A stretch of DNA of 64,000 bases, taken from assembly GCA_963930775.1 (NCBI GenBank), contig OZ005705.1, positions 5,332,001 through 5,396,000 of the forward strand. Reading direction: 5' to 3'. Within the stretch, counting starts at the first letter, position 1; each line of letters opens with the position of its first letter. This stretch comes from Cliona cf. orientalis. Taxonomy: Eukaryota; Porifera; Demospongiae; Clionaida; Clionaidae. Under the pieces are notes generated by a model. That model did not search any database and had not been told where the DNA came from. It was given only the letters and a program-made list of their open reading frames with translations. The translations under genes and the position numbers were made by a program. This document shows, piece by piece, positions 29,101 to 55,600 of the stretch.

Positions 29101-30399
29101 AAAGAAATTGCATTATAATAATTGTGACAGGATATGAGAAAAGGGACTACATGTACATGTATATCGTGCATTTCCGAATTTTCATTTTAAAGCGTTTATA
29201 TCTCTGGAACCATAGCAGCTATGAGCTTGAAACTTGGCATGAACATTCTTTCATCATCCTGCTACACTCGCTACAAATTGCAAGCCCACCCATTTCCAGT
29301 GTGGGCGAGGCGACCATGTGCATCGATCACGTTAAAAAATTACCGTTTTATGCCTTGCTTTGGTGGCTCACTACTCGGGATAGGAGGCTTGCTCAGGCTT
29401 CTAACTGCTAGCAAACCAAGCCAGAAGCATTTTGCGCGATATGGTCCCTTTTCTCACATCCTATCACAATTAGTAGTATTGATCCCAACACTTACCCAGG
29501 AATAGATCTAGAGTAGGCACTCACCCAGGATAGTAATAAAGTATGTATTAAAACACACATAATACGTGGATATAGATATATATTAAATAAGGGATAACAT
29601 CCTAACAGTGGCTATTCAGCACACACGAATGATAGCTACAGTATAGTGTGTTGGGCTATCAAGCAAGTGGCATATAGGCTTACTCTCTGTGGAAGGCAAA
29701 GATTTCTGGGAGGGTTGAAAAGATTGAAAGGAGATCAGCCTTGAGAGTCGGAGGAATGTCCGGACTGGCTGACTGCTTGATGTAGCTGTAGTAGTCCTAT
29801 GGTGTGCGAGTGTGTGAGTATGTGTGTGTGTGGGGGGGGGGGGGGGGGGGGGGGTGTAAATGTGTGAGTGAGTGATTTGCAATAGGTGTGAATGTGAGAG
29901 AGATAATGAAACTAAGGGACAGCTGATTGCTACTACGTAGAAAGTGGAGTATAACTTAGCTTCTTGAAATGACATATGCCATCAGTGGACTCTCACCTCA
30001 AAAACAGTGCGTAGTCGACCTACGTACTCTTTCTCTGATTCCACGAACTCTTGCAGCACAAACCTGCACGCAGATTCACAAGAATTAACAATAATATTAT
30101 AATCAACAGATATAAATTTAGACTCCAGTAGCTCATGTAGTGAGCCATCTGTTTCCGTGCGGTGGCTAAACAAAAGCTAATGTTTGCAAGTGTCGTGGTT
30201 TGAGCACGTGGATCTATCTACACATTGATCTAGCCATAGCTGAGCTTCCAGTATCTACAGATATCGCGCTGCCAAGATCGCAAGTATGGCTGAGGGACGT
30301 TGGCTACGCGCATGTGTATCCGTGCCGAATGTCAACGATTTATTAAACGACGTACCTTCTGTGTTCCAAAGCTTTGTCGATCTTCCCAGCGTCCGCCAT
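17189..30399 (-). CDS. TRIO/Kalirin-like RhoGEF with C-terminal kinase (18 exons, short 'duet'-type)
   Basis: Coding exons in order: 30356-30399, 29997-30063, 29684-29796, 28342-28417, 26528-26707, 25923-25973, 24713-24829, 23341-23484, 22962-23127, 22212-22378, 20964-21316, 20216-20521, 19573-19770, 19012-19150, 18297-18511, 17882-18034, 17352-17397, 17189-17260. Phases fit throughout, giving 868 aa. DH domain residues ~16-200 ([42 protein letters not shown]), PH ~205-315, Ser-rich linker, SH3-like segment ~505-570 (weak), kinase ~590-845. Kinase landmarks: SGRFSEV, Lys616 in ALKIFK, HLDVRPGN (Asp705), D726-Y-S in place of [12 protein letters not shown]. Invertebrate and vertebrate TRIO/Kalirin end in GEF2-SH3-kinase; this gene starts just before DH, with no spectrin repeats or first GEF. 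Expected role: Rho-family GDP/GTP exchange at membrane/cytoskeleton. Kinase activity is uncertain. Confidence 0.85.
18048..18235. repeat. (GA)n microsatellite, ~190 bp, intron 15 of the GEF-kinase gene
   Basis: Pure GA on the + strand, CT in the gene's sense, ending a few bases before the acceptor of exon 16 (18034). All open frames across it are repeat artefacts. Confidence 0.97.
19940..20075. mobile_element. Partial copy of the GAGAAAAGGGACCA TIR family
   Basis: Contains AAATGGTCCCTTTTCTCA and GTAGAAAGCAAGTTGGACAT. Both recur, the second as its complement, in the element at 23866-24102. Located in intron 12 of the GEF-kinase gene. Confidence 0.55.
20877..20963 (-). other. Optional coding extension of exon 11 with early stop
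   Basis: If the donor AG/GTCAGT at 20964/20963 is not used, exon 11 reads on for about 29 codons ([15 protein letters not shown]...) to a stop near 20877. That would end the protein before the SH3-like segment and kinase, a DH-PH-only form. This is a reading of the sequence, not evidence for an isoform. Confidence 0.35.
22471..22766. mobile_element. Two short TIR remnants in intron 9 of the GEF-kinase gene
   Basis: Pair 1: CTCCCAGCTTTTCAATG (about 22478) with its complement CATTGAAAAGCTGGGAG ending about 22543. Pair 2: ATAAATCGCAAAATAATATT (22586) with a near complement AAATATTTGCGATTTATAG ending about 22766. Neither encodes anything. Confidence 0.6.
23140..23300. repeat. GA/GGGA-rich simple sequence in intron 8 of the GEF-kinase gene
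   Basis: Purine-rich on the + strand, hence pyrimidine-rich in the gene's sense just before the acceptor of exon 9. Confidence 0.9.
23866..24102. mobile_element. GAGAAAAGGGACCA-family TIR element, ~235 bp
   Basis: Left TGTGACCTGCGATGAGAAAA and right, inverted, TGTGACCAACTGTGAGAAAA enclose non-coding DNA. Related copies at 19940-20075 and 29118-29473. All three lie in introns of the same gene. Confidence 0.7.
24555..24695. repeat. GA/GGGA-rich simple sequence, intron 7 of the GEF-kinase gene
   Basis: Purine-only low-complexity DNA shortly downstream of the exon 7 donor. Confidence 0.9.
25671..25905. mobile_element. Second copy of the 11681-12283 TIR family
   Basis: Ends TACCATATAGTGGGAAACTT and, inverted, TACCGTATAGTGGGAAGCTT. 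Shares the CACGAATTTCACGATTTTA and AAAGTTTCTTCACAAA internal blocks with the longer copy but lacks its G-runs and internal duplication. Confidence 0.72.
27064..27356. repeat. Minisatellite, ~28-bp unit, intron 4 of the GEF-kinase gene
   Basis: About ten imperfect copies of a unit like CCACCAGGGACTGGGGACAG + GGCTGCCAT, some truncated. Unit length is not a multiple of three throughout, and open frames across it on both strands are by-products. Confidence 0.9.
28201..28256. repeat. (CT)n simple sequence, intron 4 of the GEF-kinase gene
   Basis: CT-dinucleotide tract with a few CCC/CCG interruptions. Confidence 0.85.
29118..29473. mobile_element. GAGAAAAGGGACCA-family TIR element, ~355 bp
   Basis: TAATTGTGACAGGATATGAG.. 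at the left is mirrored by ..CTCACATCCTATCACAATTA at the right. Located in intron 3 of the GEF-kinase gene. The open frames inside have no recognisable product. Confidence 0.72.
29810..29855. repeat. TG-repeat followed by a >20-base G run
   Basis: GTGTGTGAGTATGTGTGTGT then an uninterrupted G homopolymer, just upstream (in gene sense) of exon 3's acceptor. Confidence 0.9.
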
Positions 30400-52643: not shown

Positions 52644-55600
52644 TTAGTTTGATAGCATCATGCTCCACAGCATAACTAAAGCGGTGATGATTATGTACAC
52701 TCCACGAGGTACCACAGCCACTCCTCCACTACTGTCAGTACCTCCAGTAGTAGTTGGGCAGCCAGTGGGTTTGACTGCATTATCACCAGCTGCCAGCCTC
52801 TCACAGCATGACTGAGGCTCAAAGCAGTTGCACTGGTCTGGAGCCTGGTAGGGGCAGCTGACTTGCGGTAGACTGTCAACATCGTTGAATGCTTTGAAAC
52901 CCTAAAAATTATCATAATATTGATTTTAGAAGTAAAAGAGCTCTGAATTTCTATAGGTAGCTATCCCCAGTTCTGAACCTCTCTTGATCCACATAATAAT
53001 TATCTAAGTTACTATAATTAAGTTGTACCGCAGATTCACTCCCACACAGCGCTGAGGTTCGGCCTGTGAGAATTGTTCTCTCCAAATCCTGCACTGCCTC
53101 AGATGTCCAATTTATTGCATTGAAATTGTCTAGACGTCCACTCTGCTCATTGGTTTGTGGATTCAGTCTACAATAATTATCATAGGAGTAAAAAAATTAA
53201 TACAGGGTGTTAGATATTAATACAGCTTCCATTATCGATGGATATCTAACTAACGGGTAATATTTATCCGTGAAATTAGTGAATGCAGAATCATCAGGCC
53301 AGCTGACACACAAGTCCAGGTTTCCTTTTGGATAGTACACTGGAAAAGTCAGACACATCTCTTCAATAGTACTCTGACCACCCTGCCATGCATGGTTTAA
53401 TATTTACAGTGAATCCAAAGTTGAATATTAATAATTCAGATTATGGTAAATCCTTACAACTGTCACGTCTGTCCTGTTGGTGGTATTGTAGTAGCACTTC
53501 AAAATGAGAATATCCCCCTTTGTTTAAGTTGATCATAATTATTAATTAGTTAGCAATGGAACTATATTATAGAATATTACTTACTGGTAGTACTGTCACT
53601 TCATTAGGGAGGTATGTAGTCTGTTGGAAGTCGAAATCATAGTTTGGATTTAAATCAATTGGAGCGAGTTCTTCATACACCCCACACTCAGAGTTCCAGC
53701 GAATGTGCTGCAACTCAAGGCCCCTCCCTAATTTAGAGTTCATACTAAGCCAGGATTTGTCATCGAGATTTGAGGCACTTACCAACAAGATGAGTGTGCA
53801 GGAAGTTGGCAAAGATTCGGATGCCACCATCTGGGAGGTACTGCAAGTTGATGTGGGGTATTTATTTATCTACTGCATAGATATTAGATGATTAGCATAC
53901 ATTTTCGGTGCAGTCGGCCACACAGATACTTCCAATCGTGTACTTAGGTGCTCCAGGGGGTATGATCATGTCAGCAGCTACATTATGGCCTAGAAACATT
54001 ACACCAGCATCGTGCTTTCTACGAGTGCTTGAGTAGTGTAATCTCATTCCTGAGCTGTCAGTTATGCCTACATAGAGCGTGAGATAAATCTGCTATGCTT
54101 AAAATTATAATAATATTATTAAGGTTTATACCTTCTTCCATAGTAGGATTATCGTAATGCATTTGTATTACTGCATGGTGATGCATTCCAGCACCTCCTA
54201 ACGGCAGTGCCACGTTCTCAGGAAAAATGAAATCCTAAAATAAAGATTATGTCCTGTGTTTAGCTATAAATTATAATAATATTATTATGATTACCTCTCC
54301 TCCAACAGCCCATGCTACAAGGAGAATTCCAAATCGTGCGCAGTCATCAACGTCAGATGGAAGTTCACCAGTGAAACAGCGACCAGCTGACAGTGGAAGT
54401 GTGGGGCATAAGTATACAAGCATGTGATGGACATATTCCCGAACATGTGGTGCTATGATGGGAGATATCTGTATAATATTATATAAAATACATGATTGTA
54501 GGGTAACAGATGCATGGCCCTCACAGATCTTCACTTTAAAAATTATTGTGCCCGTATAATATTATTGTTGTACATAGCTATAATTCCGAGCGAAGCGAGG
54601 TCTCTACTCGGGCTCGAAAGTTGTTTCGTATGGCTTCTGGGCGTATCTTTCGCGTGCGTCTAAATTTTCTCTCTTACTCTCTTCGACGACTCAGGCCACG
54701 TCGCCATGTGTTACTGAGTCAAAAGCTGTGGCCTCCCTCAAGATGGTCATGCAAGGCCTACAAACTCTACTGTTCGGCTGGACTGTGCTTACCGGGTAAA
54801 TCAATTTTCGCACGGCCAAAAATGATCGCACCTTCTTGGCCCAAAGTTGTTCGTCCTGTCGCTGATGGTAAAGTTGTTGCTAGCTGTGGCCTGTCAATTG
54901 ATCTACTCTTGGCTTCGTTCTTCCAAGACTGACGACATAATGGAGCTCCTTTTGTTGCTAATACTTCAGCATAGACGAAAGAAACCACTCCCTTGTCACG
55001 TGATGTACATGTGCAACACAAATTTAATTAATAATTTACTGGGAAGGGGAAACCCTAAAATGTTCAATACAGGATATTGGCATAGTGGCTCGCTGAGTGA
55101 GGACTGCTACACAAAGTGTAACTCTAGTTATATTCTATATAGCTTTGCTCCCGAATTAATATGCATGACACTAGTACTCGTCACAAGATACCCTATCCAA
55201 TTATTTACCATTCAAATTCCTTGTTACTACCACAACAGGCTATGACGTAGTAACAATCCAAAATTTAGAATTTCCCCAGTCAATAAACACCGTAGTATAA
55301 AACAATTAGCTAATTATGGAGGCAGCAACTAGGTAGTATCAGTTACGTATCTGAAAAGGAGTATGAGTGCAGAAATTCAATCCACTAGACAATTTCACAC
55401 CATTATGAAGTATTACCCTGGTGACGTATTTCGTTGTATTTCTGATGTCTTCCGGTAGTTCAAAAGTTTGACACCAGTAGGTAGTTGGATCACTGGGAAT
55501 AGTGATCTGTTATTAATATTAATAGAACACACAATTAACAGATAAAAAATTATTATTATGACCAGCATACAGGTCACAGTCATGCAATGATTCCCTCACA

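Follow-up and report, generated by a model that had tools for sequence, protein, structure and literature searches.

Does a direct repeat carrying two cytochrome P450 genes in the sponge Cliona cf. orientalis record a tandem duplication that later received transposable element (TE) insertions, or were two allelic haplotypes set end to end during assembly? The window analysed here is a stretch of 64,000 bases of chromosome 17 (C17, positions 5332001-5396000); all coordinates below are positions in this window unless a chromosome is named. It contains two direct, adjacent copies of one unit, each with one complete P450 gene; the event is clear, though of an ordinary sort. A real tandem duplication with later insertions appears to be the best explanation of the locus, with a probability of about 0.8. 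Genome searches covered 149 contigs (216,785,154 bases); the genome note lists 307 scaffolds and 217.17 Mb (PMC12639293). Exon models of the P450 and MOXD genes were drawn by eye, without transcripts, and a script was used to verify the insertion borders, the target site duplications (TSDs) and the joined empty sites. All features are listed in Table 1.

Table 1. Window coordinates of the duplicated unit, its genes and its private insertions, including miniature inverted-repeat transposable elements (MITEs).
Feature	Coordinates	Strand	Remarks
Left copy of unit	30058..38763	+	Shared AGC counted at its end; ~7.6 kb minus private insertions
Right copy of unit	38764..53665	+	Adjoins left copy, direct orientation
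Junction TTGGAGC	38757..38763	+	AGC at 38761-38763 common to left edge and right edge
Left P450 gene	31734..34634	-	13 exons by eye, 534 codons, open
Right P450 gene	40389..43313	-	Same 13 exons by alignment, 534 codons, open
MOXD-1 gene	52644..56654	-	Extent by eye from open frames; 3' exons in right copy, remainder in flank
Orphan MOXD 3' part	36674..38763	-	Partial first exon holds CAGGG element and is without splice donor
Harbinger-like element	37585..38165		TSD TTA, left copy only
CAGGG...CCCTG element	38208..38700		TSD ATTAG, left copy only, inside orphan MOXD exon
GGCCACTCC MITE, PIF/Harbinger-like	43382..43625		TSD TTA, right only, 68 bp upstream of right P450 start codon
Palindrome of right copy (right-only arm and partner)	43374..43669		Interrupted by MITE
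Foldback composite	43725..49984		TSD TGAATC; nested Mutator-like element and LINE-like (long interspersed nuclear element) reverse transcriptase frame
Helitron/Helentron-like non-autonomous element	50413..50817		No TSD, right copy only
Mutator-like MITE	52034..52451		TSD CAGTGCACC, right copy only

A preliminary description of this DNA, made from its letters, had proposed that a unit of putative GEF promoter, P450 gene and MOXD 3' end occurs twice in direct orientation, and the alignment bore out the two direct copies. Left and right copies can be read directly as four collinear blocks: 30051-34696 with 38757-43375, 34761-35183 with 49985-50388, 35202-36419 with 50825-52035, and 36622-37585 with 52592-53553 (bit scores, from the highest: 7319, 1988, 1652 and 492). 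The block alignments held 138 mismatches in 7383 aligned bases, a divergence of 1.87%, together with 63 gap runs, some few of which are block-edge effects. Mismatch density was 4-16 per 500-bp bin as far as position 37,500, and the ancestral unit measured ~7.6 kb. Gene conversion between the copies was considered and rejected: the longest identical run, found at the large P450 exon, measured 320 bp (P about 0.05).

The junction, placed at 38757-38775 by the preliminary description, was narrowed to seven bases (Table 1). The sequence is TTGCAGCACAAACC at the left edge, TTGGAGCACAAATC at the junction and TTGGAGCGAG at the right edge; AGC is therefore common to all three (30055-30057, 38761-38763 and 53663-53665), a microhomology of 3 bp. 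Among random joins, a flush match of at least 3 bp is expected in about 5%. The 1442 bases at the start of the left copy had long genome matches only at the two copies, and two other matches were just 34-36 bases; no second near-identical copy of the left or right flank was found in the genome search. The locus thus has two adjacent direct copies, one novel junction and flanks that are not duplicated, as in a tandem segmental duplication. To the left of the unit lies a RhoGEF gene on the minus strand (E 1.4e-11 at 26504-26719, plus a PH domain). Separately, the left flank at 28434-29958 gave a row of partial matches on C15:2100116-2102860, mostly 85-91% identical with one piece at 68%; by its sequence this reads as an older paralog outside the duplication event.

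MOXD-1, a DBH-like monooxygenase gene, has the right breakpoint inside one of its apparent coding exons, so that the left copy has only the MOXD 3' end. The 3' exons of MOXD-1 matched Cu2_monoox_C (E 1.3e-12), and DOMON was matched by the first frame of the gene (E 3.5e-14); two middle exons gave matches to Cu2_monooxygenase domains under the Pfam cut-offs. The cut exon of the left copy is damaged twice: the CAGGG element lies inside it, and 13 bp are missing, the splice donor among them. Both copies have open frames in the four exons that follow (194 codons and a stop, with 12 differences). Changes in these exons numbered 8.5 nonsynonymous to 3.5 synonymous, a ratio of 0.71 that is not different from neutral, and relaxed constraint on the orphan part was for this reason rejected as a clock.

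These observations bear directly on the proposal that two allelic haplotypes of a single-copy locus were set end to end by the assembler (a false heterotype duplication). Manual curation of this assembly took out 81 haplotypic duplications and reduced its length by 32.33% (PMC12639293), and the divergence of the copies is possibly of allelic size. False duplications are, however, mostly parted by an assembly gap and sometimes by a depth gap (PMC9516828); this assembly has 216 gaps in 217.17 Mb (PMC12639293), and not one N occurs in the 64,000 bases of the window. The junction is flush, with its 3-bp microhomology inside an apparent coding exon, and sequence outside the unit has no second copy found. 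A left MOXD allele would need a 0.5-kb exon insertion as well as a missing splice donor, and BUSCO duplication is only 1.4% (PMC12639293). An assembly artefact is accordingly very improbable, and the choice of a duplication over an end-to-end join, put forward in the preliminary description, was upheld.

Both P450 models have GT-AG introns and frames that are open throughout. The protein matched Pfam p450 (E 1.2e-90), its best solved relatives were CYP3A4 chains, and the genes are judged CYP3A-like from these matches. The distance between the two genes, a check named in the preliminary description, was obtained: 21 of 1605 bases differ (stop included), with synonymous divergence (dS) 0.033, nonsynonymous divergence (dN) 0.008 and dN/dS 0.24. 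Other P450 matches were much more distant among the 81 of 366 candidates scored, and the use of a close third P450 as an outgroup was dropped, as none occurred among them.

The two copies carry six private insertions, five of which face an unoccupied insertion point in the other copy. Reciprocal empty sites, as first claimed, therefore held for five insertions; the sixth, the MITE at 43382-43625, has no clean empty site. In the left copy, the Harbinger-like and CAGGG elements are each bounded on both sides by their TSD, and the right copy is empty at both points. In the right copy, the foldback composite and the Mutator-like MITE likewise have TSDs on both sides and face an empty left copy. 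The Mutator-like site is the sole empty site identical across all 80 flanking bases; the others showed additional small indels within 40 bp. The element previously given as 50413-50797 is also private, with the left copy empty, and its end was moved to 50817; it looks Helitron/Helentron-like rather than like an element with terminal inverted repeats. The use of the left copy as the empty site of a MITE at 43379-43629 did not survive: the MITE sits in a 26-bp inverted arm found in the right copy only, which means that either the left copy lost 26 bp or the right copy gained them. As a separate matter, the palindrome around this MITE was rejected as a repeat family, since a 22-base pattern drawn from it (up to 2 mismatches) matched at this locus alone (2 forward, 0 reverse).

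Element classes were assigned from borders and from sibling copies elsewhere in the genome. The Harbinger-like element and the MITE at 43382-43625 have the 3-bp TTA/TAA TSD and terminal inverted repeats of PIF/Harbinger elements: siblings of the former had an exact TTA/TAA TSD in 14/20 (ends not found in 6/20) and siblings of the latter in 19/20 (ends not found in 1/20). About 100 bp of the Harbinger-like element (37618-37716) were absent from the siblings examined and are perhaps a nested insertion. The CAGGG element has a constant 5-bp TSD, seen in 24/29 siblings (6-bp match in 2/29, none in 1, ends not found in 2), and it is named here by its ends and not by a superfamily. The Mutator-like MITE shows a 9-bp TSD and inverted ends; exact 9-bp TSDs flanked 14 of 29 siblings and exact 8-bp TSDs another 2, with none exact in 8 and ends not found in 5. 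Within the foldback composite, a nested Mutator-like element at 45000-45634 has the 9-bp TSD GGCCACCGT and perfectly matching 72-bp ends; the reverse transcriptase frame matched RVT_1 (E 5.7e-29), and an endonuclease-like match at 48142-48558 fell under the Pfam cut-off.

Because the Helentron-like element has no TSD, its borders rest on its siblings, the ends of which read A, then TTACCCCGCG ... GAGCTCTAG, then TT. On the right, GAGCTCTAG (CTCTAG) followed by TT was found in 5/5 readable siblings of 10 fetched; on the left, A preceded TTACCCC in 11/12 of those shown, and the other 8 of 20 matches begin inside the element. The element also has inset inverted repeats, a 3' palindrome and a T-rich target, which together with the lack of a TSD fit Helentron/HINE elements.

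The stretch from the right P450 start to the MOXD 3' end holds all four insertions of the right copy, the closest at 68 bp from the ATG and the next at 411 bp, and the upstream region of the right gene now consists of Harbinger-like MITE, foldback, Helentron-like and Mutator-like elements. All six insertion points avoid the P450/GEF-side block and fall in the remaining 39% of the unit, for which the probability is 0.0036 if insertion were uniform, a post hoc and weak figure.

Element ages were compared with the split of the two copies. A first look at the genome, with 40 candidates scored per element, gave 2570 candidates for the Helentron-like element, 1306 for CAGGG, 784 for the Harbinger-like element, 207 for the MITE at 43382-43625, 123 for the Mutator-like MITE and 67 for the foldback arm. 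The nearest CAGGG sibling had 1 difference in 486 bp (among 29), and the nearest siblings of four other elements had 3/362, 3/243, 6/432 and 7/405 differences. Private substitutions were then counted for five elements, the foldback composite standing outside the comparison; as the counts were made from the best-scoring siblings only (29, 29, 20, 20 and 20), they are upper bounds. They were 0/486 for CAGGG, 2/452 for the Harbinger-like element (last 452 bases only, plus a 10-bp insertion and a 2-bp deletion), 2/381 for the Helentron-like element, 3/243 for the MITE (plus a 9-bp deletion) and 5/414 for the Mutator-like MITE.

The split predicts 0.93% per lineage, and the five dated elements range from 0 to 1.2%. 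Summed, they have 12 private substitutions in 1976 bases; had every element been inserted at the time of the split, 18.5 would be expected (P 0.076). CAGGG alone is individually younger (P 0.011). The counts agree with insertion at the time of the split or later, and the ages look staggered over the interval since then, the youngest near zero and the oldest near the split itself. The empty sites show that five insertions came after the two sequences had split; the broader statement of the preliminary description, that all insertions postdate the duplication, was too strong in both "all" and "duplication". Recent activity, proposed earlier for several MITE families, is supported for four of the elements and well supported for the CAGGG family; the accompanying idea of many insertions in little time was not borne out as a burst, given the spread of ages.

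Several points weigh against a duplication followed by insertions. From the k-mer completeness figures of the genome note (primary 60.5%, alternate 91.43%, combined 99.62%; PMC12639293), heterozygosity bounds of 0.5 to 3.4% were derived, which are loose because other k-mers, for example from symbionts, may be mixed in; 1.87% falls within them, and divergence alone therefore cannot exclude alleles. Unplaced contigs added no estimate of heterozygosity: the one searched of six fetched 6-kb pieces gave no long match beyond its own contig. The four later exons of the orphan MOXD part remain open. In the terminal exon, polarised by two paralogous exons, the attached right copy has 2 derived codons and the orphan 1, which is unlike the pattern of a long-dead copy. 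The MITE and Mutator-like counts (1.2%) exceed the split expectation, not significantly (P 0.40 and 0.35), and insertion slightly before the split is thus possible for these two.

The same points enter a second alternative, a frozen heterozygote, in which two different haplotypes were brought into tandem by unequal exchange or by end joining. Much of the 1.87% and some of the insertions would then be older allelic differences and not events after the duplication. The divergence within the loose heterozygosity bounds and the ages of the MITE and Mutator-like elements, near that of the split, fit this origin, and the extent of the curation of this assembly suggests strongly different haplotypes; the CAGGG element, younger than the split and placed in the orphan exon, argues against it. 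We consider such an origin unlikely, though less so than an assembly artefact. As such an exchange would itself be a real duplication, its odds overlap with those of the preferred explanation, and the odds of the three explanations do not sum to 1. An exchange of this kind between divergent haplotypes would have fixed both P450 alleles and their insertions side by side, giving two differently controlled genes in one step, and this further consequence is decidedly doubtful.

Under the preferred reading of a real tandem duplication, a 7.6-kb segment would have been duplicated by a join with little homology, the AGC microhomology, with one breakpoint in the apparent MOXD coding exon and the second beyond the RhoGEF gene, on its right side. 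The products would be two complete P450 genes, an orphan MOXD 3' end on the left and an orphan GEF-side flank on the right. After the split, at least four kinds of element (PIF/Harbinger-like, CAGGG with 5-bp TSD, Mutator-like and Helentron-like) and one foldback composite would have been inserted successively, into orphan MOXD sequence or the region of the unit upstream of P450, and the P450 frames would meanwhile have been kept under purifying selection. The four right-copy insertions, the nearest at 68 bp from the ATG, may have altered the control of the right P450.

Further repeats were observed around these genes. The stretch 54561-55129, within MOXD-1 and the right flank, is a dispersed repeat whose best other copies are 97-98% identical (40 of 285 candidates scored), perhaps another recently active family. 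Two tandem stretches ~90% alike occupy 56960-58125, and both contain a frame like the MOXD terminal exon, at 57084-57347 and at 57717-57980. Frames resembling a MOXD tail by eye lie at 35726-36152, common to both copies, and are perhaps an older partial duplication. Near the window start, a tandem repeat (278-673) has a perfect 192-bp inverted match at 18045-18236, ~17.5 kb away.

Reciprocal empty sites with a common split age make the locus a small calibrated record of families that moved recently in this genome, and the damage to the orphan exon makes it a test case for separating real tandem duplications from haplotype joins. In the literature on Cliona TEs, on tandem duplication and MITEs in sponges and on P450 tandem duplication with TEs, none of the titles and abstract openings listed describes this locus or these families. 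False heterotype duplications share with it adjacent, diverged copies in one assembly (PMC9516828), whereas the Cliona locus is without a gap and has one copy with a broken exon. Paralogous empty sites are an established method: in the related empty sites (RESites) used for PIF/Harbinger mobility, as here, an element-free paralogous copy reveals the target site and borders (PMC2213677); here one duplicated segment provides several sites, in both directions, with ages set against one split age. The element at 50413-50817 shares with HINE/Helentron elements inverted repeats that lie a few bases in from the 5' terminus and are inset at the 3' terminus, a palindrome close to the latter, a TT insertion site and no TSD seen; its 3' inset is ~20 bases, versus 38-60 for the mite families (PMC4067079). 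At Cyp6g1 of Drosophila melanogaster, an allele series, resistance and frequencies were studied, whereas the Cliona locus is known from sequence alone; in both, extra P450 copies occur with several different TE insertions nearby (PMC2891717). By analogy with Cyp6g1, altered control of the right P450 by its insertions is plausible, and if this gene is expressed from its TE-built upstream region, the sponge locus would offer a parallel to that of the fly.

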